In this document: one piece after another, positions 19,088 to 37,146 of the stretch
Layout: every line of letters begins with the position of its first letter
Position numbering within the stretch: the stretch's first letter is position 1
Assembly (NCBI GenBank): GCA_017557635.1
Contig: JAFYYH010000011.1
Coordinates: forward strand, 1-64,000
From: Bacteroidaceae bacterium
GTDB lineage: Bacteria; Bacteroidota; Bacteroidia; Bacteroidales; Bacteroidaceae
Length of the DNA: 64,000 bases
Direction: 5' to 3'
The notes under the pieces: generated by a model
Told to the model about the DNA's origin: nothing
The model's database searches: none
Seen by the model: only the letters and a program-made list of their open reading frames with translations
Translations under genes and position numbers: made by a program

Positions 19088-21721
19088 ATGAAACGAGTAC
19101 TGCCAATTATTGCCGTATTATGTGCATTGGCTTCCTGTTCCAAGACGGATCCGGGAAAGCTTGAGATCAATGAAAGGGGCTATTTCGAAACCCAAGGTGT
19201 CAACGTTCTGGTTTACTCAAACCGTTATCAGGGTGTTTTCTGTGATGAGAAGACAGCCGGTGTTGAGATTGTCCAGCGTGGTGTCCGTATCGCCACCGGC
19301 GGTGGCGTGCGCCTGATGAACACCCCTGAGCAGTGGGATATCTATTCCACGCTTACGGAGCGCACTATCGATACCCTGGGCGGCGTTATCAGCTGCCATT
19401 TCAAGTATCAGGACTATGAATTCGAGTATGACCTCAAAGTCAAGGAGGAGGGTACCGGATTCCGCATGTGGGTTGAACTGGACAATCCGGTTCCCCAGAA
19501 TCTTGTGGGCAAGGCAGGCCTGAACATGGAGTTCTTCCCCGCAACCTACTTTGGAAAGACCTATCTGGTGGACGGTCAGTCGGAGATATTCCCGCGCTAT
19601 CCGTCAAGCGACACCGAGATGCGTCCCAATGATGAAAAGATTCCTCAGTTCTGGGGACTTTCCACTTTCGATGACCGCGGACGTAACGAGTTCATCGTTC
19701 CCAAACCCATATCAAAGGGCCATAACCTGGTTCTGGCTCCCGAGGACGAGGCTCTGCGCGTGGCATTCAGTTCCGAGACCGAAATCAATCTGTTTGACGG
19801 ACGTGACCTTTCACAGAACGGTACGTTTGTGGTACGTTCATATCTGCCCGGAGGTAAGACCGGAAAGGTTCTGGAATGGCTGGTTGAGCCTACTCCCAAT
19901 GCAGAGTGGATTCGTGAGCCCAACGTAGGATTCTCACAGATAGGTTATACTCCCGCCCAGAAGAAGGTTGCAGTCATTGAGCTGGACCGAAACGACAAGG
20001 TTGCATCCAAGGCCAAGATATGGCGTGTGAACGCCGACGGCAGCCACACTCTGGTACTTACTCCCGCAGTGAAGGAGTGGGGTGTGTTCTATGACCGTTA
20101 TAACTATGCACAGTGCGACTTCAGCGAAGTACGCGAACCCGGTACATACTTTATTGAATACAAGGACGTCAGGACAAATCCGTTCCCCATCAACGTGAAC
20201 GTATATGACGGCAAGTGGTACAACACCATGGATGTATGGCTGCCCGTTCAGATGGATCATATGATGGTGAACGAGGCATACCGTGTATGGCATGGCCGTT
20301 CCCATATGGATGACGCCGTTCAGGCTCCCACCAACTATCAGCAGCAGGACGGCTACCGCATGGGCAACACCACAAACACCAAGTACAAACCCTACGAGCA
20401 CATACCCGGCCTGGCAGTAGGCGCATGGTATGATGCAGGTGACTTTGACATCCAGTCAGGTACCGTAGTAGGTCTTACCAACCAGTTGGCTGAACTGTGG
20501 GATGTTCTGCGTCCTGAGCGTGACCAGACATTCATTGACCAGAAGACCCAGTTCGTGGATATTCACCGCCCTGACGGTGTGCCCGATATGATCCAGCAGG
20601 TGGAGCACGGCGCTCTTAACCTCTGTGCCCAGATTGAGAACATCGGCTTCATTGCCGGCGGTATCGTTCAGGGTACGATGCACCAGTATCACCATCTGGG
20701 TGATGCCGTTACCATCACTGACGGTTATATCTATGATCCCAGCCTCAAACCTTATGAGGTTCGCGGAAACCGTTCAGGAACTCTTGATGACCGATTCGCA
20801 TTCACCAACAACGGCGGCAATCCCATGGGTAACGCTAACGTATGCGCCGCATTGGCACATGCCGCACGCGTACTTGCTCCCTATATGCCGGAGACTGCGG
20901 AGCGTTGCAAGAAGAACGCACTCAAGCTCTGGAAGGACATGGATGATTTCCAGGCACGTCAGGCTAACCGTCCGCAGCAACAGACGCAGTTCAACCAGCA
21001 GCGCGGCGGACGCGGCATGGGTGGTGACCGTTCAGGTGCAGCCATACAGTTGTGGCTCCTTACCGGTGATGACAAGTACAAGGAGATATTCCTGCCTGGT
21101 GTAATGCGTCAGATAGAGGCTGCCAAGAACGCTCCTCAGGGTGTTGAGGACAACCGTACAGGCGGCGGCAGCGCAATGCGTGCTCCGCGTGTGAACATAA
21201 CTACTGCACTCTCACTGCTTCCTTACATGGATGAAGATTTCAAGGCACAGCTCCGTGAGGTTATCCCCGTATTCGTTGAGGATGCCAAGCGTACTGCCGA
21301 ATCAACTCCTTACGGTGTTCCCGTAGCCGGAGGTACATGGGGCGGAAGCGAGCGTGTGATCAGTTGGGCTCAGAACAATTATATGGTATGGCGTTACTAT
21401 CCGGACCTGATTGATCCGGAACTGGTACTGTCAGGCCTTAATTTCATATACGGCAACCATCCGTACTCAAATGTATCGTTTGTAACTGCTGTCGGTGTCA
21501 ATACCAAGAAAGTCGCTTACGGAAACAATCGTGCGGATTACACATTCATACCCGGCGGAATTGCTCCCGGACTTGTACTCCTGCAGCCTGACCTGCTTGA
21601 GCATAAGGACGACTATCCGTTCCTGTGGGGTGAGAATGAGTGCTGCACACGTACCGTTCCGTCATACGTGACGCTCTCAATCGGTGCCGAGGAGATTGCC
21701 GCAGCGTTAAATAAAAAGTAA
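19088..21721 (+). CDS. Glycoside hydrolase family 9 lipoprotein
   Basis: An 877-aa predicted lipoprotein (signal peptide MKRVLPIIAVLCALASC, lipobox Cys17) of family GH9, mostly endo-beta-1,4-glucanases. Residues 20-270 form an unrecognised beta-rich region. A CelD_N-like immunoglobulin domain begins near residue 281 (FSQIGYTPAQKKVAVIELD). The (alpha/alpha)6 barrel follows with the catalytic-base motif GAWYDAGDFD (D449 and D452). The usual acid Glu may be in FLWGENECC (E849 or E851), although its context differs from the common family motif, and I do not see a typical HPHHR segment. Residues about 620-650 hold a Gln/Arg/Gly-rich loop. It heads the pump operon, 32 bases from the ABC ATPase gene, an unusual association. 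Activity on beta-glucan is likely but not certain. Confidence 0.85.
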   Translation: MKRVLPIIAVLCALASCSKTDPGKLEINERGYFETQGVNVLVYSNRYQGVFCDEKTAGVEIVQRGVRIATGGGVRLMNTPEQWDIYSTLTERTIDTLGGVISCHFKYQDYEFEYDLKVKEEGTGFRMWVELDNPVPQNLVGKAGLNMEFFPATYFGKTYLVDGQSEIFPRYPSSDTEMRPNDEKIPQFWGLSTFDDRGRNEFIVPKPISKGHNLVLAPEDEALRVAFSSETEINLFDGRDLSQNGTFVVRSYLPGGKTGKVLEWLVEPTPNAEWIREPNVGFSQIGYTPAQKKVAVIELDRNDKVASKAKIWRVNADGSHTLVLTPAVKEWGVFYDRYNYAQCDFSEVREPGTYFIEYKDVRTNPFPINVNVYDGKWYNTMDVWLPVQMDHMMVNEAYRVWHGRSHMDDAVQAPTNYQQQDGYRMGNTTNTKYKPYEHIPGLAVGAWYDAGDFDIQSGTVVGLTNQLAELWDVLRPERDQTFIDQKTQFVDIHRPDGVPDMIQQVEHGALNLCAQIENIGFIAGGIVQGTMHQYHHLGDAVTITDGYIYDPSLKPYEVRGNRSGTLDDRFAFTNNGGNPMGNANVCAALAHAARVLAPYMPETAERCKKNALKLWKDMDDFQARQANRPQQQTQFNQQRGGRGMGGDRSGAAIQLWLLTGDDKYKEIFLPGVMRQIEAAKNAPQGVEDNRTGGGSAMRAPRVNITTALSLLPYMDEDFKAQLREVIPVFVEDAKRTAESTPYGVPVAGGTWGGSERVISWAQNNYMVWRYYPDLIDPELVLSGLNFIYGNHPYSNVSFVTAVGVNTKKVAYGNNRADYTFIPGGIAPGLVLLQPDLLEHKDDYPFLWGENECCTRTVPSYVTLSIGAEEIAAALNKK

Positions 21722-21753: not shown

Positions 21754-22635
21754 ATGTCGATAAGTATTAAAGGGTTAAGCCACTACTATCCCAACGGGAA
21801 GAGAGCGCTGACCGATATCAACCTGGAGATACCGTCAGGTATGTTCGGACTTCTGGGACCTAACGGTGCCGGAAAGTCCACGCTGATGCGTATCCTGGTA
21901 ACACTGATGGAACCCACCGAAGGGTCGATAGACGTATGCGGCTATGACATACGCACACAACGAAAGGAGGTGCGCCGCATTCTGGGTTATCTGCCTCAGG
22001 ATTTCAGGTTTTTTGCCAAGTATAAGGTTCGTGAGTTTCTGGAGTATGCAGCTGCGCTTACGGGTATGACCAATTCCTCGGAGCGCGGTAAGGCTGTTGA
22101 CGAGATGCTGGAGCAGGTGGGTCTGTATGAGGCCCGTGACCGATACGCACAGAATCTGTCGGGTGGTATGAAGAGACGTCTGGGTATTGCCCAGGCCCTT
22201 ATTCACAAGCCCAAGGTCCTGGTGGTGGATGAGCCTACCACAGGTCTGGACCCTGAGGAGCGTATCAGGTTCCGTAACCTGTTGAGCGAAGCCAGTACAA
22301 AGGATACCACAATCATACTGTCAACCCACATTGTAGGTGACATCTCGAGTTCATGTACCGAGATGGCCATGCTCAACCAGGGACAGGTGATGTTCCGCGG
22401 TTCGCCTGCAGGTATGCTCAAGGAGACCGACGGTAAGGTTTGGCGTCTTCAGGTTACCAATGAACAGTATGCCGAGATAAATCAGAAATACGCAGTGATA
22501 TCTACAATACCACATGGTCTGGGATGGGATCTGCAGGTTGTATCCAAGGAGAACCCCGGATACGGTGCAGTGAACTATCCTCCAAACCTGGAGCATGCAT
22601 ATGTTTATTTTACGGAGATTAAGGATAAGGATTGA
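21754..22635 (+). CDS. ABC transporter ATP-binding protein (ABC-2 type)
   Basis: A 293-aa stand-alone nucleotide-binding subunit. Seen are the A-loop region SISIKGLSHYYPNGKRAL, Walker A LLGPNGAGKSTLMRI, Q-loop YLPQDFRF, signature NLSGGMKRRLGIAQ, Walker B VLVVDEPTTGLDPEERIRF and H-loop ILSTHIVGD. The C-terminal 65 residues are a short accessory domain. All catalytic residues are present. It overlaps the following permease gene by one base (TGATG), so they form one transporter. The NBD is clearly related to the one fused to the RND protein downstream (shared MFGLLGPNGAGKST and RIRFRNLL words), pointing to duplication inside the cluster. Substrate unknown. Confidence 0.93.
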   Translation: MSISIKGLSHYYPNGKRALTDINLEIPSGMFGLLGPNGAGKSTLMRILVTLMEPTEGSIDVCGYDIRTQRKEVRRILGYLPQDFRFFAKYKVREFLEYAAALTGMTNSSERGKAVDEMLEQVGLYEARDRYAQNLSGGMKRRLGIAQALIHKPKVLVVDEPTTGLDPEERIRFRNLLSEASTKDTTIILSTHIVGDISSSCTEMAMLNQGQVMFRGSPAGMLKETDGKVWRLQVTNEQYAEINQKYAVISTIPHGLGWDLQVVSKENPGYGAVNYPPNLEHAYVYFTEIKDKD

Positions 22636-26034: not shown

Positions 26035-27540
26035 ATGAAAAAGAAAAAAGCATTATTTACGGCAATCGTTCTGCTTGCAGCATCACCCGCCTTTGAGGGT
26101 GGGGCACAGGCTCAGATTGTCATGACCATGGAACAGGCTCTGGAGTATAGTGAACAGCACAATCCGGACCTGATCAACTCACGTATGAGCATGGAGCGCT
26201 ATGAGCAGAACCTGATTGCCCAGAAGGCTTCACTGAAATCAAGGTTCTCACTTAATCTGCAGCCTATCTCATACTCACAGTCACGTCAGTTTGACAGCCG
26301 ATTCTCAGACTGGTACACCAACCGTTCGCTGACATCATCAGGTACTTTCAGCATATCACAGCCCATTATCTGGACCGATGCTACGCTGTCACTCAACAAC
26401 AATCTGTCATGGCAGAACAACCAGTCATCGGTAGGCGGTACGACCAACAGCAACAAAGGCTTCAGCAACAGCCTTTATCTTAGTCTGACCCAGCCTATCT
26501 TTACCTACAACAGGACCAAGATGAACCTGCGTCAGATTGAGATGAACTATGAGAACGCCCGCATCAGTTATGCATTGCAGCTGCTCAACGTAGAGCGTAA
26601 CATCACAAGTCAGTTCTACAGCCTCTTCACTGCCCAGCAGAACCTGGAGATAAGCGAATCAGAACTGGAGAATGCCGAGAAGAACTTCAATATCATCAAG
26701 GATAAGGTGGAGGCCGACCTGGTTACCAAGGATGAGTACTACCAGGCACAGGTTAACCTGGCTCAGTCACGTTCCAGTCTGGAGAACCAGAAGGTGAGCC
26801 TGGAGAATTCAAAGGACAACTTCAAACAGGCACTGGGAATTCCTCTGGAGGAGGATATCATAGTAGTTTGCGATATTGCGGCCGAGCCTGTGTATGTGGA
26901 TTTTGATAAGGCTTTGGAGAGTGCCACTACCACAAGACTTGAACTCCGTCAGCGTCAGATATCAAGGGAGCAGCAGGAGATGTCAATGATTCAGGTCAAG
27001 GACAATGACAGTTTCAGCGGAAACATCTCACTGTCAGTGGGTGTTATGGGTGATGATCCGCAGTTCCCGCACATCTATGACAATCCTACGAACAACCCGC
27101 GTGTATCGGTCTCATTCAGCGTACCTATCTTTGACTGGGGTGCACGTAAGGCACGTATCAAGGCTGCCGAGATTGAGAGAAAGATGTTTGAACTCAGTGC
27201 AGAGGAGGAACTCAAGAGCATAGAGATCAACGTACGCAGCACATGCCGCAGTCTGAATAACCTGCTCGAGCAGATTTCAATAGCAGAGCAGAGCCAGCAG
27301 AACGCACAGCTCACCTATGAACTCAATGAGGAGCGCTACCGCAACGGTGAACTTACCGGTATGCAGATGAACCAGTTCCAGACACAGCTGTCCAACAGCA
27401 AGATGTCATACACTCAGGCTATCATTAATTATAAGGTTCAGCTTCTGAACATCAAGATCCTGACCCTTTACGACTTTGAGAAGAATGAGCCTGTGGTTCC
27501 CATTACCTATGAGGAGAGTACCAACAAGAAAAAGAAATAA
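26035..27540 (+). CDS. TolC family outer membrane efflux protein
   Basis: A 501-aa outer-membrane channel subunit with a signal peptide (MKKKKALFTAIVLLAASPAF). The mature part shows the two TolC repeats: beta-strand segments around residues 80-160 (SGTFSISQPIIWTDATLSLN) and 325-365, and long helices such as VERNITSQFYSLFTAQQNLE and ELENAEKNFNIIKDKVEADL. The second-half marker VSVSFSVPIFDWGARKARIK is typical. Length fits the family. It lies 13 bases after the ABC permease and 5 bases before the adaptor, so it probably forms the exit duct of the pump encoded here. Confidence 0.92.
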   Translation: MKKKKALFTAIVLLAASPAFEGGAQAQIVMTMEQALEYSEQHNPDLINSRMSMERYEQNLIAQKASLKSRFSLNLQPISYSQSRQFDSRFSDWYTNRSLTSSGTFSISQPIIWTDATLSLNNNLSWQNNQSSVGGTTNSNKGFSNSLYLSLTQPIFTYNRTKMNLRQIEMNYENARISYALQLLNVERNITSQFYSLFTAQQNLEISESELENAEKNFNIIKDKVEADLVTKDEYYQAQVNLAQSRSSLENQKVSLENSKDNFKQALGIPLEEDIIVVCDIAAEPVYVDFDKALESATTTRLELRQRQISREQQEMSMIQVKDNDSFSGNISLSVGVMGDDPQFPHIYDNPTNNPRVSVSFSVPIFDWGARKARIKAAEIERKMFELSAEEELKSIEINVRSTCRSLNNLLEQISIAEQSQQNAQLTYELNEERYRNGELTGMQMNQFQTQLSNSKMSYTQAIINYKVQLLNIKILTLYDFEKNEPVVPITYEESTNKKKK

Positions 27541-27545
27541 CAAAA

Positions 27546-28616
27546 ATGAAACAGCATATGAAATCAGGAATCAGCGTACTTACACTGGCTGCACTGACCG
27601 TACTTATGGCAGGGTGCAGACAAGAGAACACAATGAACCGCGCAGAGATACCGACTCCGGTGTCAGTATCGGACATTACCTACGGTTCAATCAGCAGGGT
27701 ATTCACAACCAACAGCACTGCGATATCAAGTGCCGAGGCTGAACTGTCGACCGAGATGGCCGGCAAGTACCATCTGCAGAAGAATCCCGCTACAGGCAAG
27801 CCTTACAAACTTGGTGACAAGGTAAAGAAGGGCGCCCTGATTGTACGTATCGAGGATAAGTCATACGAGAACGGCATATCCATCGAGACCAAGCGTCTTA
27901 ACCTGGAACTTGCCGAGCAGGAGCAGGTCAAGACCAAGTCTCTCTATGACAAAGGCGGTGCCACTCTGACCGAGGTCAAGAACTCGGAGGTGAAGATCAT
28001 GAACTCACGTCTGGATTATGAGAACGCCGAGATGAATCTGGAAAAGATGAACATCCGCGCTCCGTTTGACGGAGTTATCGTAAACCTGCCGCACTTCTCG
28101 GAGGAGGCCAAGGTTAACAGCGGAACATCGGTTGTAACCGTTATGGACTACAGCCAGATGCTGCTTGAGATCAATCTTCCGGAGAGCGCCATCACTGAGG
28201 TGAAGGTGGGCCAGAAGGCATACATCACCCATTATACACTCCCCAAGGACACCATCATGGGTGAGATCACCGAGCTTTCACCGGCCATCAGCGCCGAGAC
28301 CCGTACATTCAAGGGCAAGCTCATGATCAACAACAAGGACCTGCTCATCAGACCGGGTATGTTCGTTAAGGCCGATATCGTTACCGAGAGCCACAGCTCA
28401 ACCATCATTATCCCCAAGAACATTGTACGCAACGAGCGTAACAGACGTATCGTATTCGTGGTTGACCAGGGTATTGCCCGCGCCAAGCAGGTAAAACTGG
28501 GTCTTGAGGAGAAGAACCAGGTAGAGGTGCTGAGCGGTCTTGAAAAAGACGATCAGCTGATCATACGCGGTTTTGAGACCCTGAGAGACGGTTCAAAGGT
28601 GAAGATCCAAAGATAA
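27546..28616 (+). CDS. RND efflux periplasmic adaptor lipoprotein
   Basis: Membrane fusion protein linking the inner-membrane pump to TolC. 356 aa with a lipoprotein signal (lipobox LMAGC, Cys24), so it is anchored in a membrane by lipid. The biotinyl-lipoyl-like and hairpin regions are around residues 60-165 (KYHLQKNPATGKPYKLGDKV, then MNIRAPFDGVIVNLP). The beta-barrel follows (LLEINLPESAITEVKVGQKA), then the membrane-proximal domain (GLEKDDQLIIRGFETLRDGS). It is placed between the TolC gene (5 bases) and the first RND gene (14 bases). A second ATG at 27558 is possible. Confidence 0.92.
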   Translation: MKQHMKSGISVLTLAALTVLMAGCRQENTMNRAEIPTPVSVSDITYGSISRVFTTNSTAISSAEAELSTEMAGKYHLQKNPATGKPYKLGDKVKKGALIVRIEDKSYENGISIETKRLNLELAEQEQVKTKSLYDKGGATLTEVKNSEVKIMNSRLDYENAEMNLEKMNIRAPFDGVIVNLPHFSEEAKVNSGTSVVTVMDYSQMLLEINLPESAITEVKVGQKAYITHYTLPKDTIMGEITELSPAISAETRTFKGKLMINNKDLLIRPGMFVKADIVTESHSSTIIIPKNIVRNERNRRIVFVVDQGIARAKQVKLGLEEKNQVEVLSGLEKDDQLIIRGFETLRDGSKVKIQR

Positions 28617-31600: not shown

Positions 31601-31723
31601 AGCTCACCCATGGCTATTGCCGTGATAGGCGGTCTGGTCACTTCAACTCTGTTGAGTCTTGTGGTGATACCGTGTGTTTATTATGTATTTGAAAGCGCCA
31701 AAATCAGAATAACAGGCAAATGA
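28631..31723 (+). CDS. RND efflux permease, subunit 1
   Basis: Inner-membrane proton-driven pump of the AcrB/HAE superfamily, 1030 aa, full length. The N-terminal TM1 is in VTVTMAVLAILLLGKISYDR. There are two large periplasmic loops (about 35-330 and 560-860) and 12 TM helices. The TM4 relay reads GAGMLVDNAIVVIES: Asp414 is kept, while the second Asp of AcrB is Asn. TM10 has AVNNSIILVDR in place of AcrB's Lys940 segment, as in many non-proteobacterial RND proteins. The last 4 bases overlap the start of the next RND gene (ATGA), which suggests a paired, MdtBC-like arrangement of two different RND subunits. Substrate unknown. Confidence 0.93.
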   Translation: MKKLVSWAVRKPVTVTMAVLAILLLGKISYDRLSVELLPSMNSPRLFVEIDAGERPPEEIEKQFVRSMESQIARQSDVRSVSSVVKVGTARITVEYAWRKNMDEAFLDLEKAMSSFSQDSRVTDLRISQKDPTTAPIMIIGFSNPDITDMAELRKVADSYVCNELMRVEGVADVSLAGDEFTNLVIDADPYKLKAFNITVDNISSRIQESNQRVSGGRITEQGFQYLVTGSNTLTDEAAFGNIIVGYRNTETNQGQIGEFESASMAPIYLRDVATIRFENREPENIVRVNGKRSIGISVFKEMDYNTVKAVEGVKTSLAKIQKSLPGYEVKVISDQATFISSSIGEVKNSAIMGVILAVIVLFVFLRRMGTTLIVAISIPVSIIATFNLMFFSGLTINILTLGGLALGAGMLVDNAIVVIESIFRNQERGLSVRDASITGTSEVAGAVSASTLTTIVVFLPIVYLHGATGELFKDEAWTVTFSLVSSLFVAILVIPTLYDKIFGRKKAMPLKNFSSVNIKGYSSFLKRLVQKRWWVIAASVILVAGTVFLLPYVGTEFMPKADASTINVKVRMGEGTSLERTSSTVESLENLVFDLTEDPECLIYTHIGPGASSQNMDFEGENTASMKIQLSKASVISPDELTEILSSYIEGVEGMELSFTQDENSLNSMMGTEDAPLVVEIKGEDLDLLSALTNQVKAAVDSIDCLYNVESSLAGGAPEIIITVDRAMAGMNNINVSTIITQIQQHLAGREAGQMDYKGDMRDISIKVPGVSLADLNNMVITSGQKDFRLVELARITESTAPKEIYRLNQNRVTRVTADIDESVSLDKAAQRTREAVAGIELPQNYSITVTGEEERRAESMNSLLLALVLSIVLVYMVMASQFESLLHPFTILLTIPLALVGAVLLFLATGITVNIMGIIGMVMLAGIAVNNSIILVDRIGQLKESGLSLTDAIAEAGQQRIRPILMTSLTTILALVPMALGLGDGASLSSPMAIAVIGGLVTSTLLSLVVIPCVYYVFESAKIRITGK

Positions 31724-34700
31724 AGTCATTTATTGACCGTAGAGTTACTATATGCATGCTTCTGGTGGCTTTGACGCTGCTGGGCTACTTCTCATACAAG
31801 CAGTTGCCTGTTGAGTTGCTGCCCAATACGGAACTTCCTCAGCTTTACATTACTGCCAATTCCAGGAGTGACCTTACTCCGGCTTACATGGAACAGCAGG
31901 TGGTGATTCCGCTTGAGGGAGCCATCAGCGCCGTGGGCGGTGTCGAGAACATGGAATCGACGGTATCCGGCAGACAGGGTTCCATAAGGGTGGACTTCAA
32001 GAGAGGTACCAACCTTAAGATGACTACAGTGAAGCTGCAGGAGAAGATAAGTTCCATCAGAGGCGATTTTCCGACCGATGTAACCGTCAATGTCCAGCAG
32101 GCCAACCTTACAGGCATAAGCAACCAGTTCATGTCACTTCAGGTGCGCGGATCAGGAGGTGTTGACCGCCTGAGAGCCATCGTGGACAAGGATGTGGTAC
32201 CACGTCTGGAGAGCATTGACGGTATTGCAGGTGTGACGGTGTATGGCGGACGTGTCAAGTCAATCGAGATACGTTCCAACACCGAGGCCATGCAGGCATT
32301 GAATATATCCAACTCACAGATAAGTCAGGCATTGAGCCAATATAACCAGGAGCGTACATTCCTTGGTTTTATCAGCGAGCCTGACAGAAAGTATTATGTG
32401 CAGCTTGACGCAAACTACGACGATGTGTCACAGGTAGAGAACCTGGTTGTTGCACCGGGACCGATATATCTTAAGAATGTGGCAACGGTATTCTTTGACT
32501 ACAAGGAGGAGACTACCATCAGCCGTGTAAACGGTATGGACGCCATATCCGTTTCACTGGTGAACAGCACGGGTGAGAACCTGTTGGACCTGTCCAAGAG
32601 AGCGCTTAAGCGCATTGACGAGGTTAACCGTGAGATAGCCGCTCAGGATATGCAGCTTGTGGTTCAGTCCAATTCGGCTGACCAGATAAGCAACAACATA
32701 TCGCAGATTGTCAAGTTAGGTCTGATGGGCGGACTGCTGGCCATTCTGGTCCTGTGGTTCTTCCTGCGCAACCTGAGTCTGGTGTTCTTTATAGCATTGT
32801 CCATACCGGTGTCGATATTATCGGCCTTCAACGTGTTCTACGCCGCCGATGTATCCATCAACACACTGACCCTTCTGGGAATGGCGTTGGCCATAGGTAT
32901 GCTGTTGGACAGCAGTATAGTGGTGTTGGAGAATATCTACCGTCTGGCATCTATGGGTATGCCGCCCAGGCTGGCTGCCCTGCAGGGTGTCAAGGAGGTG
33001 CGTAAGGCCCTTGTTGCCTCAACGCTTACCACCATAACGGTATTCCTTCCGTTTGTATTCTCTGATGAGCCGATGATCAAGCTCCTGGGTAAGAATATCG
33101 GCTTCTCAATCATATCTACGCTGATATTCTCGCTTATGGTGGCTGTCACCTTCATACCTATGGCTACTGCAGCTATGATGGAGCGTGGAGGCGGAGGCAA
33201 CAGTGTCTTCTTCCAGAAGATGTCCATACATGACCGTCCGCTGCAGATGTATTCGACGGTGCTCAAGACCTGTCTGCGTAAGCCGGGTCCAACCATCGGT
33301 TCGGCTGTAGCCATTCTGGTCATTGCATTTATCTTTGCGCTGGCCCGCAATACAGGTCAGAACCGTCAGGTGGACAGTGACCGAATCAGTGTGAACATCA
33401 CCATGCCTACCGGAAGTACGCTTGACGATACTGACGAGGCAACTGCCACTCTTGAGAAACGTCTGGACAGCCTCAAGTACAAGAAGGATGTGATAAGCCG
33501 TATTCAGGAGGAGCAGGCATCCATCACCGTTACTCTACAGGAGGGCTACAACAAGAAGGGCGGTCCTACCATCAGTCAGTTGGTTGAACAGTTGAGCGAT
33601 GAACTGACTCTTGAGAACGAGATTGATGTTCGCGTAACACCCGGCTATGCCCGCTACAACCAGAATGCATCGGGCCTGAACTCGGTTACACGCTTTATGA
33701 GCGTGCTGGGCGTGGGTGACAATACCGAGCGTATAGTTGTCAAGGGTTCCGATACCGAGACCATGCGTATCGTCTCCAACAACCTCAGATACTATCTGGA
33801 GCAGTTGGAGTTTGTACGTGATGTCAGGGTTGACAACCCGGGCGGCCGCCGTGAGGTACAGCTTACCTTTGATCCGGTGGCTTTGGCATCGTACAATATC
33901 ACCAGTCAGGCCATTACATCGGCTCTGAACTCAATGAACCGCTCCACCAGCACCGGTGCCAGCTTTAAGGTAGGTACCGATGAATATGACATTGTCATCA
34001 TGGAGGACCTCACTGAGGAAGAGGAGGAGATGAGGGCCTGGGAGAAAACCCTGGATGATTTGCGACGCCTAACCGTGACCGATGCAAACGGCGGAATCCA
34101 TGAACTTCAGCAGTTGGCCAATATCCGACTGAGCCGCGGCCCGTCGGAGGTTAGGCGTGTTAACCGTGACCGTCGCGTCAATGTGACTTACTCTATCTCT
34201 CAGAGCGAGGAGCTGCCTAAGGATGTGCTTGACGGCTATCATGACCAGATTGATGATCTGATTGCCAACTACAACCTGCCTTCAGGACTGGCTCTCGAGG
34301 TACAGCGCGGTGATGACTCCACCAGTGAGTTCAAGTTCCTTATACTGGCCTCTATCATACTCATATTCATGATATTGGCATCGGCCTTTGAGTCACTTAC
34401 AACGCCTATAGTACTGCTGTTCTCAATACCGCTGGCTGCCATCGGCTCACTGTTGGCATTGCTGCTGTCGGGTAACAGTCTGATGAACGCAAATACCCTT
34501 ACCGGATTCCTGATCCTTCTGGGCATAGTGGTCAACAACGGTATCATACTTATAGACTATTCGTCGACACTGCGTCGTAGGGGCTATAACCGTATGAGGG
34601 CAATCATGAACAGCGGTTATTCACGCTTAAGACCGATTTGCATCACCACAATCACCACCATTGTCACGCTTATCCCGATGGCAATGGGTGACAATGAGTA

Positions 34701-36417
34701 TGCAGGTGCCATCGGCGCACCGTTTGCTCTGACAGTGATTGGCGGTCTTACCTTCTCGGCCGTGCTGACGCTTCTGCTCATTCCTACGCTCTACATATCG
34801 TTTGAGAACATGAGGGCATGGTATAAGAATTTGGGCCGATACACCCATATCCTGCATGTCATACTCTTTGCAGTGGGCCTGATTCTGATATTTACCACCA
34901 CTCGCGGAATATTCCGTATTCTCATTTACATCCTGGTGCTTGCAGTCGCAATACCCGGAGTCACATACTTCATAAAGAGTTCAGTCAGAATTGCCCGCAA
35001 GGATATTGTCAAGCCTGACGAGCCCATCGTCATTGAGGTACGTAACCTGGTTAAGGTATATGACTGGTACAGCCTGTTCCTGCGTCAGTGGCGCAGCGGT
35101 CTCAACATACGCCGCCGTCTTGGACTGGCACGCACATACCATCATGCAAAGGACTTTGTGGCTCTGTTGTGGCAGGTAGTGGTATTCGGTTATACCGCTT
35201 ATCTGGCCGGATGGTATTTTGAGAAGCAGGGATGGATACTGCTTATGACCATCATCACTCTGGCCGGCGTAAACAATATCCTCAAGGCTATCCTTGAGTA
35301 TATCGCATACAAGTTCAAGGGTGGGGCAGGTGCAGTGAAGATTATCAGAAGGATACTCTACTGGGCTCTGCCGATACTTGCCATGATATTCCTGAGCACA
35401 CGCATTGAGAGCAAGGGATTCATGGTATTCATTGCTGTCGTATGGATCCTGGGCCTCTGCATCAGCAAGACTGCCGATTATCTCTATGAGAACAATATTA
35501 ACGTGGAGCGCCTTAAGGGCGAGACAGCCGGCATGAGACGTGCATGGTTCGTGTTCGTAAAGAGCATTCCCATAATCGGCAAACGCAAGAAGCCGTTCAA
35601 GGCTCTGCGCGGTGTTACGTTTGAGATCCACAGCGGTATGTTCGGCCTTCTGGGACCTAACGGTGCCGGTAAGTCCACGTTCATGCGTATCGTGACCGGT
35701 ATCCTGCGTCAGAGTTACGGAACGGTATTCATCAACGGTATGGATACTCTCAAGTACAGGGAGGAGTTGCAGAGCCTTATCGGCTTCCTGCCTCAGGAGT
35801 TCGGTATGTACGAGTCCATGAGTGCATGGGATTTCCTGAACTATCAGGCCATCCTGAAGGGTATTACCGATGAGAAAGTCCGTAACGAGCGTTTGGACTA
35901 TGTGCTCAAGTCAGTTCACATGTATGAGCAGCGCAACTCGGAGATAGGATCGTTCTCTGGCGGTATGAAGCAGCGAATAGGTATTGCGCTTATCCTGCTC
36001 AACCTGCCGCGTATCCTTGTGGTCGATGAGCCTACTGCCGGACTTGATCCGCGTGAGCGCATACGCTTCCGTAACCTGCTGGTTGAGCTGAGCCGTGACC
36101 GTATCGTGATATTCTCGACACATATCATTGAGGATATAGCAAGTTCATGTAATCAGGTCGTAGTCATAGAGAAGGGCTCACTCAAGTACTTTGGAGAACC
36201 GGGCGATATGGTTAACCTGGCCAAGGACAAGGTATGGCTGTTTGACATTGAGGCATCACGTCTGGGTGAACTTGACGAGAAACTCATTGCCAACCACATC
36301 CAGGACGGAGGTAAGATCAAGGTGCGTTACATATCACCTGAATGCCCGTGGCCGGGTGCCGAGCTTGCTGAGCCCAACCTTGAGGATGCATATTTGTGCC
36401 TATTGAAGAACCTTTAA
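31720..36417 (+). CDS. RND efflux permease fused to an ABC ATPase domain
   Basis: A 1565-aa fusion. Residues 1-1030 are a complete RND permease (TM4 GMLLDSSIVVLENIYR with Asp397; TM10 GIVVNNGIILIDYSS). Two extra TM helices follow (about 1043-1088). The ABC domain begins with IVIEVRNLVKVYDWY (A-loop Tyr about 1114). It is then interrupted by about 175 residues with four likely TM helices, and resumes at PFKALRGVTFEIHSG. Walker A is 1312-1319 (GPNGAGKS), signature FSGGMKQR about 1412-1418, Walker B ILVVDEPTAGLD with D1436 and E1437, and H-loop His1468. All catalytic residues are present. I know of no characterised RND-ABC fusion. The reading frame is open throughout with uniform codon use, so an assembly error joining two genes seems unlikely. 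The next gene is an ABC-2 permease 12 bases away, its probable partner. Confidence 0.92.
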   Translation: MKSFIDRRVTICMLLVALTLLGYFSYKQLPVELLPNTELPQLYITANSRSDLTPAYMEQQVVIPLEGAISAVGGVENMESTVSGRQGSIRVDFKRGTNLKMTTVKLQEKISSIRGDFPTDVTVNVQQANLTGISNQFMSLQVRGSGGVDRLRAIVDKDVVPRLESIDGIAGVTVYGGRVKSIEIRSNTEAMQALNISNSQISQALSQYNQERTFLGFISEPDRKYYVQLDANYDDVSQVENLVVAPGPIYLKNVATVFFDYKEETTISRVNGMDAISVSLVNSTGENLLDLSKRALKRIDEVNREIAAQDMQLVVQSNSADQISNNISQIVKLGLMGGLLAILVLWFFLRNLSLVFFIALSIPVSILSAFNVFYAADVSINTLTLLGMALAIGMLLDSSIVVLENIYRLASMGMPPRLAALQGVKEVRKALVASTLTTITVFLPFVFSDEPMIKLLGKNIGFSIISTLIFSLMVAVTFIPMATAAMMERGGGGNSVFFQKMSIHDRPLQMYSTVLKTCLRKPGPTIGSAVAILVIAFIFALARNTGQNRQVDSDRISVNITMPTGSTLDDTDEATATLEKRLDSLKYKKDVISRIQEEQASITVTLQEGYNKKGGPTISQLVEQLSDELTLENEIDVRVTPGYARYNQNASGLNSVTRFMSVLGVGDNTERIVVKGSDTETMRIVSNNLRYYLEQLEFVRDVRVDNPGGRREVQLTFDPVALASYNITSQAITSALNSMNRSTSTGASFKVGTDEYDIVIMEDLTEEEEEMRAWEKTLDDLRRLTVTDANGGIHELQQLANIRLSRGPSEVRRVNRDRRVNVTYSISQSEELPKDVLDGYHDQIDDLIANYNLPSGLALEVQRGDDSTSEFKFLILASIILIFMILASAFESLTTPIVLLFSIPLAAIGSLLALLLSGNSLMNANTLTGFLILLGIVVNNGIILIDYSSTLRRRGYNRMRAIMNSGYSRLRPICITTITTIVTLIPMAMGDNEYAGAIGAPFALTVIGGLTFSAVLTLLLIPTLYISFENMRAWYKNLGRYTHILHVILFAVGLILIFTTTRGIFRILIYILVLAVAIPGVTYFIKSSVRIARKDIVKPDEPIVIEVRNLVKVYDWYSLFLRQWRSGLNIRRRLGLARTYHHAKDFVALLWQVVVFGYTAYLAGWYFEKQGWILLMTIITLAGVNNILKAILEYIAYKFKGGAGAVKIIRRILYWALPILAMIFLSTRIESKGFMVFIAVVWILGLCISKTADYLYENNINVERLKGETAGMRRAWFVFVKSIPIIGKRKKPFKALRGVTFEIHSGMFGLLGPNGAGKSTFMRIVTGILRQSYGTVFINGMDTLKYREELQSLIGFLPQEFGMYESMSAWDFLNYQAILKGITDEKVRNERLDYVLKSVHMYEQRNSEIGSFSGGMKQRIGIALILLNLPRILVVDEPTAGLDPRERIRFRNLLVELSRDRIVIFSTHIIEDIASSCNQVVVIEKGSLKYFGEPGDMVNLAKDKVWLFDIEASRLGELDEKLIANHIQDGGKIKVRYISPECPWPGAELAEPNLEDAYLCLLKNL

Positions 36418-36429
36418 AGAAGTTGACCA

Positions 36430-37146
36430 ATGTCAGTATTACAGACAACTAAATCATTCGCCAAGCTGTGCGGTTACAATATGAGGATCATTTTTGCCGG
36501 CAAGTTCATCTGGTTCCTGCTGGTGGGCCTGGTCCTGTTCTTCTTCCTCATGTACACCGCTGCGGCTCGTGGCACGACCCTGAGTCACGGTATGGTATAC
36601 AGTCAGCTTATCATACCGGGTCTTCTTCTGGTGTTCTATCCGGCCTGTTTCGGTATTCAGAATGATGCCGATCACCGAATTCTGGAGCTTCTGTTCGGTA
36701 TACCCAACTACATGTATAAGGTATGGCTGTTCCGCCTGGTGATGATATACGTTGAGGTATATCTGATCCTGGTAGTCTACGCCTTCCTGGCCAGAATCCT
36801 GCTGTATCCGGTATCGCCGTTCACAATGGCTGGACAGCTCATGCTTCCGGTCACCCTGTTCGGTAACCTTGCATTCCTTTACTCAACCCTTATACGCAAC
36901 GGAAACGCCGCTGCAGTCATGTCGGTGCTCACGGTTATATTGGCTATGATACTGGGCAATATTCAGCTGGTTGAGAACAAGGTATGGGATGTGACCATCA
37001 ATCCTTATGAGGAGCCCGAGAACATCAACGCTGCCATCTGGAGCCTTACTCTGCTCAAGAACCGCATCGTGATGGCAGTGGCGGCTGTCATCTTCCTTAT
37101 GTCGGGATTGCTAGGCCTGCAGAACCGAGGCAAATTCCTTGGGTAA
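36430..37146 (+). CDS. ABC-2 type permease
   Basis: A 238-aa membrane protein with six likely TM helices: IIFAGKFIWFLLVGLVLFFF, LIIPGLLLVFYPACFGI, LVMIYVEVYLILVVYAFLA, LMLPVTLFGNLAFLYSTLI, AAAVMSVLTVILAMILGNI and a final VMAVAAVIFLMSGLLG. The amphipathic N-terminus and the segment HRILELLFGIPNYMYKVWLF resemble ABC-2 permeases. No soluble domain is attached, unlike the 1128-aa permease upstream. As it directly follows the RND-ABC fusion, it probably uses that NBD. Last gene of the operon; a strong hairpin terminator follows about 40 bases on. Confidence 0.85.
   Translation: MSVLQTTKSFAKLCGYNMRIIFAGKFIWFLLVGLVLFFFLMYTAAARGTTLSHGMVYSQLIIPGLLLVFYPACFGIQNDADHRILELLFGIPNYMYKVWLFRLVMIYVEVYLILVVYAFLARILLYPVSPFTMAGQLMLPVTLFGNLAFLYSTLIRNGNAAAVMSVLTVILAMILGNIQLVENKVWDVTINPYEEPENINAAIWSLTLLKNRIVMAVAAVIFLMSGLLGLQNRGKFLG

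Follow-up and report, generated by a model that had tools for sequence, protein, structure and literature searches.

The 64,000-nt stretch of a Bacteroidaceae bacterium analyzed here (assembly GCA_017557635.1, contig JAFYYH010000011.1, positions 1 to 64,000; hereafter the window) encodes a protein in which a full-length resistance-nodulation-division (RND) permease and a complete ATP-binding cassette (ABC) ATPase lie on one chain. The stop-free open reading frame (ORF) occupies positions 31720-36417 of the forward strand, encodes 1565 amino acids (aa), and is the sixth of seven genes in an operon, the others coding for an ABC ATPase, an ABC-2 permease with an M1-like ectodomain, a TolC-type channel, a periplasmic adaptor, another RND permease (RND1), and, directly after the fusion, a NosY-like permease (gene 7). 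We give a probability of about 0.5 to the reading that the fused ATPase and gene 7 form an ABC exporter tethered to a two-RND tripartite pump, so that substrate delivery would be driven by ATP and the substrate then passed to the RND-adaptor-TolC channel. This reading is preferred because the single frame is conserved in Bacteroidota and in a second phylum, that of a KSB1 bacterium, the catalytic residues are invariant, the ATPase is the best-conserved part of the protein, and gene 7 is adjacent. A preliminary description of this DNA stated that no characterized protein is known to combine the two families; in agreement with it, no description of an RND-ABC fusion was found among the matches listed from the open-licence full-text literature of PubMed Central, which were judged by title and the start of the abstract (subscription papers and preprints lay outside this scope).

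Architecture of the RND-ABC fusion

The Pfam model ACR_tran aligns with residues 2-1028 of the fusion (553 bits against a gathering cut-off of 28, profile positions 3-1020 of 1021), identifying a full-length RND permease domain (RND2), and ABC_tran is covered over its entire profile by residues 1296-1440 (87 bits). The C-terminal domain has the fold of an ABC nucleotide-binding domain and carries the full set of ABC ATPase motifs: an A-loop, Walker A at 1312-1319 (GPNGAGK at 1312-1318), a Q-loop, the signature (FSGGM at 1412-1416, SGGMKQR at 1413-1419), Walker B with the catalytic glutamate (D1436/E1437), and an H-loop (H1468). Conservation was assessed in 74 complete rows picked for length and domain matches, with broken or truncated frames left out and six genomes present twice. 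Y1114 of the A-loop, K1112, GPNGAGK, Q1359, SGGMKQR, D1436, E1437, and H1468 are invariant in 74/74 rows, and residue 1319 is S or T. Pfam matches, motif positions, and conservation elsewhere all bear out the preliminary description of a single chain holding a full-length RND permease and a complete ABC ATPase with intact motifs. In median identity to the window protein (59 non-redundant rows), the ATPase core (75%) exceeds the RND domain (46%) and the insert described below (31%), and it is the best-conserved module of the fusion.

The motifs lie where the preliminary description had placed them, but it had overlooked that the domain is split. The ATPase does not start near residue 1290: beta-1 and the A-loop sit at 1105-1114. 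According to the alignment and the AlphaFold2 (AF2) model, the fold begins with these residues, is interrupted by a membrane insert, and resumes at 1293. Beta-1 and beta-2 are thereby separated in the 74 rows, the insert being 109-225 aa long (median 176, and about 176 residues in the window protein). In the AF2 model it consists of a helix, four long transmembrane (TM)-like helices (1143-1166, 1170-1198, 1202-1228, and 1232-1257), and a further helix, and at least two TM-like segments are present inside the insert in 60/60 non-redundant rows. Two fusion ORFs of 1515 and 1536 aa (L126 and L129) have an insert of just 109 aa, with two TM-like segments instead of the usual four. Between the RND domain and beta-1 there are two TM-like segments in 58 of the 60 rows and one in the other 2. 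The position between beta-1 and beta-2 is an unusual site for interrupting an ABC ATPase, and we know of no other ABC ATPase interrupted there. Residues 1033-1292 have no sequence match in the PDB at E values up to 1, and no Pfam family besides the ATPase models matches the C-terminal part of more than 2/60 members.

Distribution across two phyla

Genome samples were drawn from Bacteroidota and from the phylum of the KSB1 hit and searched with linker queries; beyond these, GTDB contigs were scanned with two search patterns, one of which contains the beta-1 motif. The linker queries found the fusion in 7 of the 151 genomes of the family sample, in 40/295 genomes of the order Bacteroidales (29/184 genera), and in 6/395 genomes of the phylum sample (Bacteroidota), each count including the window's own genome. 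It is also present in 41 of 82 genomes of the KSB1 phylum, the genome of the KSB1 hit included. At least 32 loci were recovered by the GTDB scan, including loci from Fermentimonas, Mariniphaga, and a KSB1 bacterium. Of the 32 matches listed, 29 have a single uninterrupted frame (1568-1595 aa) that carries Walker A and FSGGM. Contig ends truncate L022 and L039, and the frame of L045 contains N and is broken; L022 and L045 are two contigs of the same assembly. Relatives with the same RND-then-ABC order, for which the preliminary description had proposed a search, thus occur in many other genomes of two phyla.

Short frames are mostly attributable to contig ends. This was judged to be the case for all of the short frames in the order sample (8/40). 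In the KSB1 phylum, 31 of 41 frames are at least 1535 aa long (that of G883, with 1535 aa, reaches its contig end); six of the ten shorter ones were judged by position to stop at contig ends, G908 likely does so as well, and three are broken within the contig. These are G887 (whose RND part contains runs of N and a break in the frame), G912 (a break within the insert), and G892, which has two frames. In a quick tree of 60 rows with a midpoint root, the 41 proteins from Bacteroidota group together (SH-aLRT, an approximate likelihood ratio test, 84) inside the KSB1 spread, which suggests an ancient origin of the fusion, perhaps with a greater age in the KSB1 lineages. A plasmid-borne element was also considered and rejected, as a tblastn search with residues 1033-1292 gave no match in 72,556 plasmid records.

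Genome G892, from the KSB1 phylum, encodes the RND domain and two TM helices (1137 aa) in one frame and the ATPase with its insert (485 aa) in a second. The split is located between residues 1096 and 1098, where it separates the extra TM helices from beta-1, and marks a module border. The gap between the frames (L187:5505-5716) holds an inverted repeat that has 27 matches in the genome when its own copy and both strands are included, with about 18 sites elsewhere. Because this dispersed repeat lies between the frames, the split looks secondary. Two separate genes in related genomes, which the preliminary description had named as a finding that would speak against the fusion, are therefore seen in one genome, in a form that appears derived.

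The seven-gene operon

The genes of the operon and the parts of the fusion are listed in Table 1. Two adjacent RND genes follow a single adaptor gene (TolC-MFP-RND1-RND2, MFP being the membrane fusion protein or adaptor), with an overlap of 4 bp between RND1 and the fusion and a gap of 12 bp between the fusion and gene 7. Gene 7 is found directly downstream of the fusion in 74 of the 75 loci with room for it, and the upstream gene order agrees in 70/73 loci; these counts include six genomes twice and score gene lists that end at fetch or contig ends as agreeing. The complete contiguous set of seven genes is present in 33/72 loci, and many of the remaining loci are truncated where the contig or the fetched sequence stops. 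In the KSB1-phylum genome G909 (L142) the operon is arranged in two divergent halves, and RND2-ABC stays with gene 7. The flanks (up to 4 kb, often shorter) contain 586 ORFs of at least 100 aa, and no further gene, such as one for a regulator or for making a substrate, recurs there in at least four diverse loci.

Table 1 Features of the fusion and its operon in the window
Feature	Position	Strand	Evidence
RND permease domain of the fusion, RND2 (residues 1-1028)	31720..34803	+	Pfam ACR_tran; start overlaps RND1 end by 4 bp
Predicted pair of additional TM helices following the RND domain (residues 1040-1060, 1064-1088)	34837..34983	+	AF2 helices; TM-like segments across rows
Beta-1 strand and A-loop Tyr1114 of the fused ATPase (residues 1105-1114), predicted	35032..35061	+	AF2 strand; aligned to 1vpl N-terminus
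Insert inside the fused ATPase (residues 1115-1292), predicted	35062..35595	+	AF2; alignment of 74 rows
ABC ATPase beyond the insert (residues 1293-1565): Walker A, Q1359, signature, Walker B, H1468, C-terminal part	35596..36414	+	Pfam; motif alignment
Gene 1, first ABC ATPase, 293 aa, uninterrupted	21754..22635	+	ORF; motifs in relatives; homologous to the fused ATPase
Gene 2, ABC-2 permease with large ectodomain (M1-like and golvesin-C), 1129 aa	22632..26021	+	Pfam
Gene 3, TolC-type outer-membrane channel	26035..27540	+	Pfam OEP
Gene 4, periplasmic adaptor (MFP)	27546..28616	+	Pfam HlyD_D23; NCBIfam RND_mfp above its cut-off
Gene 5, RND1 permease, 1030 aa	28631..31723	+	Pfam ACR_tran; operon order conserved
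Gene 7, NosY-like permease of type V (ABC-2), 238 aa; likely pairs with the fused ATPase in the membrane	36430..37146	+	Predicted fold; adjacency

Visual inspection of the gene 1 ATPase of the window and of three relatives shows no insert between beta-1 and beta-2; a sequence pattern for its beta-1 matched only 2/29 proteins, and the uninterrupted state is therefore given from inspection and not as a count. The gene 2 protein of the window matches only Golvesin_C in Pfam, and the 22 family members match Golvesin_C (22), ABC2_membrane_2 (12), and Peptidase_M1 (12). As HExxH is present in just 1 of 37 full gene 2 family ORFs, the protein is probably not an active M1 enzyme. Upstream of the operon, a forward-strand gene at 19088-21721 encodes 877 aa and stops 32 bp ahead of the first ATPase; by eye, we take its product to be glycoside-hydrolase-9-like.

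Possible coupling of the ABC and RND modules

In the reading that we prefer, the seven genes would encode one composite exporter built around the fusion. The C-terminal ATPase of the fusion, anchored at the membrane through the two and four extra TM helices, may dimerize on gene 7 to form a type V ABC exporter, and RND1 may join the RND2 domain in a trimeric, probably heterotrimeric, pump that also includes the adaptor and TolC. Covalent linkage would keep the ABC exporter beside the tripartite pump, feeding or helping to drive it: a substrate, likely amphiphilic or lipid-like, would be delivered by ATP hydrolysis to the outer leaflet or periplasm and handed over directly to the RND-adaptor-TolC channel. 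Genes 1 and 2 might contribute a further ABC module, related to the first, to this machine. The suggestion in the preliminary description that two pumps are tied into one assembly is thus supported indirectly, by the conserved operon and the adjoining NosY-like permease.

The relatives of the ATPase and of gene 7 are consistent with such a pairing. Among PDB sequences the fused ATPase is closest to the ATPase domains of ABCA4 and ABCA1, and by fold it is closest to TM_1403/TM0544, with the MacB ATPase domain (5lj9) also among the fold matches. The predicted model of gene 7 has the type V transmembrane fold, with NosY as its best match, and gave weaker matches in another Foldseek search. In both respects the system resembles NosFY(D), PmtCD, and ABCA-type (type V, ABC-2) exporters. 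Its ATPase differs from theirs in being covalently linked with an RND permease and in the interruption by an insert for which four TM helices are predicted. The best NCBIfam matches of the fusion among ABC models are GldA and DrrA (173 and 166 bits), far under their cut-offs of 402.6 and 312.45; both are stand-alone ATPases. Fold prediction and adjacency make gene 7 the likely membrane partner of the fused ATPase, and an amphiphilic substrate is plausible given the resemblance to lipid and sterol transporters of the ABCA and ABCG types.

On the RND side, the system shares with MdtBC a full-length ACR_tran domain and tandem RND genes accompanied by an adaptor and TolC, and MdtB is the best sequence match of solved structure. 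The scores stay far from the NCBIfam equivalogs (273 bits against 1584 for MdtB, 276 against 1774 for MdtC), and the fusion departs from HAE-type (hydrophobe/amphiphile efflux) RND pumps, MdtBC included, in its added C-terminal TM helices and ABC ATPase and in the replacement of the D408 and K940 equivalents in both subunits. One study describes HAE-1 RND pumps as homotrimers and, rarely, heterotrimers such as MdtBC (PMC8277102). An RND1:RND2 ratio of 1:2 would give exactly two ATPase domains per trimer.

Several observations weigh against this reading. The pairing with gene 7 rests on adjacency and a predicted fold, the E values of gene 7 in the weaker Foldseek search are poor (0.057 at best), and the Pfam ABC2 models match a minority of its family members, with Acyl_transf_3 matching 3/39. 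ABC ATPases act as dimers and RND pumps as trimers, which poses a problem of stoichiometry. L148 has no gene 7 match despite 5 kb of room, and L138 has RND1, the fusion, and gene 7 only. In L143, RND1 and the rest of the operon are missing from the roughly 10 kb that precede the fusion, and the contig stops about 140 bp after it. Finally, because G892 holds both modules as separate ORFs, the covalent linkage may not be essential and the modules may be able to work unlinked.

An alternative that we regard as unlikely is a direct drive of the RND cycle by ATP. Acting through the extra TM helices, the fused ATPase would then move the RND transmembrane domain and so replace or supplement proton coupling. 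The argument for it lies in the proton relay. When AcrB-equivalent positions are taken from an alignment with MdtB and a second RND chain of solved structure, RND2 lacks the canonical D407-D408-K940 relay: in the 74 rows, the D408 equivalent (position 398) is N in 41, S in 30, T in 2, and C in 1, and the K940 equivalent (939) is N in 74/74. RND1 carries D-N and N where D-D and K would be canonical, in 71/71 ORFs. D408 is described as being protonated and deprotonated in the course of the RND cycle (PMC8277102). D-D and K are kept by 23 of 27 non-operon RND homologues used as controls (the 24 best-scoring matches and three from the window's genome, not a random set; this set excludes L006-L008 as well as L152-L157, which are fusions or RND2 fragments). 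However, the remaining four controls (L158, L167, L179, and L005) show the same D-N/N pattern, and around them TolC and an adaptor but no ABC protein were found (12-19 kb each, ORFs of at least 180 aa compared with the proteins of this operon only). RND2 also keeps the equivalents of D407 and T978 in 74/74 rows and of R971 in 9/9, and a likely type V permease is available as a partner for the ATPase. Since relay loss occurs in those four controls, the loss of D408 and K940 in both RND subunits is suggestive of ATP drive and not decisive, and as a proof of it was rejected. The proposal in the preliminary description that ATP hydrolysis is coupled to the RND pump is a possibility compatible with this loss, which does not establish it.

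The window's own genome (C21) holds a second tandem RND pair with an adaptor and TolC (L194:6295-12524). One of its subunits, the one examined, has D-N and N instead of D-D and K, and no nearby ABC protein related to this operon was found.

More doubtful is a role of the ATPase as a mechanical or assembly switch, by MacB-like mechanotransmission or gating of the tripartite channel, in place of an exporter formed with gene 7. MacB appears to differ from the fusion in domain order, which counts against such a role, and MacAB is not known to contain an RND. The tethering of the ATPase to extra inner-membrane TM helices and the adjoining adaptor and TolC genes would fit a switch, and a tripartite ABC pump that combines an ABC ATPase with an adaptor and TolC exists in MacAB-TolC (PMC5985334). 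By comparison with that pump, the ATPase of the fusion is C-terminal and interrupted by TM helices; it is also nearest to ABCA domains among PDB sequences and has a type V permease beside it.

It is more doubtful still that the chain carries two independent transporters, joined for co-expression and stoichiometry and functionally uncoupled. The split of G892 exactly at the module border, with both ORFs kept, would be expected of such an arrangement, but the fusion has been kept over great divergence, and the extra TM segments have been kept despite sequence drift, both inside the insert and before beta-1. An assembly chimera or a decayed gene is of negligible probability: the window does come from a draft assembly (24 contigs, 89% complete), but the same frame and gene order in many other genomes of two phyla, together with catalytic residues invariant in 74/74 rows, exclude chance and artefact, including the assembly error between the RND and ABC parts that the preliminary description had named as a possible refutation.

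RND pumps are driven by ion gradients and ABC transporters by ATP, and textbooks sort efflux pumps by energy source. The parts of this system each come from known families, and for their combination in one tripartite exporter no description was found in the open-licence literature. Here both engines lie on one chain and have been kept together in two phyla, with the ATPase as the most conserved part, and there is a real chance that the fusion represents a new energy-coupling class. It allows a direct test of whether ATP can power, gate, or feed an RND pump, and it raises the question of how a two-fold ATPase dimer matches a three-fold RND trimer. If the RND heterotrimer is ATP-driven, these proteins would constitute a class of tripartite exporters in which the energy mechanisms of RND and ABC transporters are merged.

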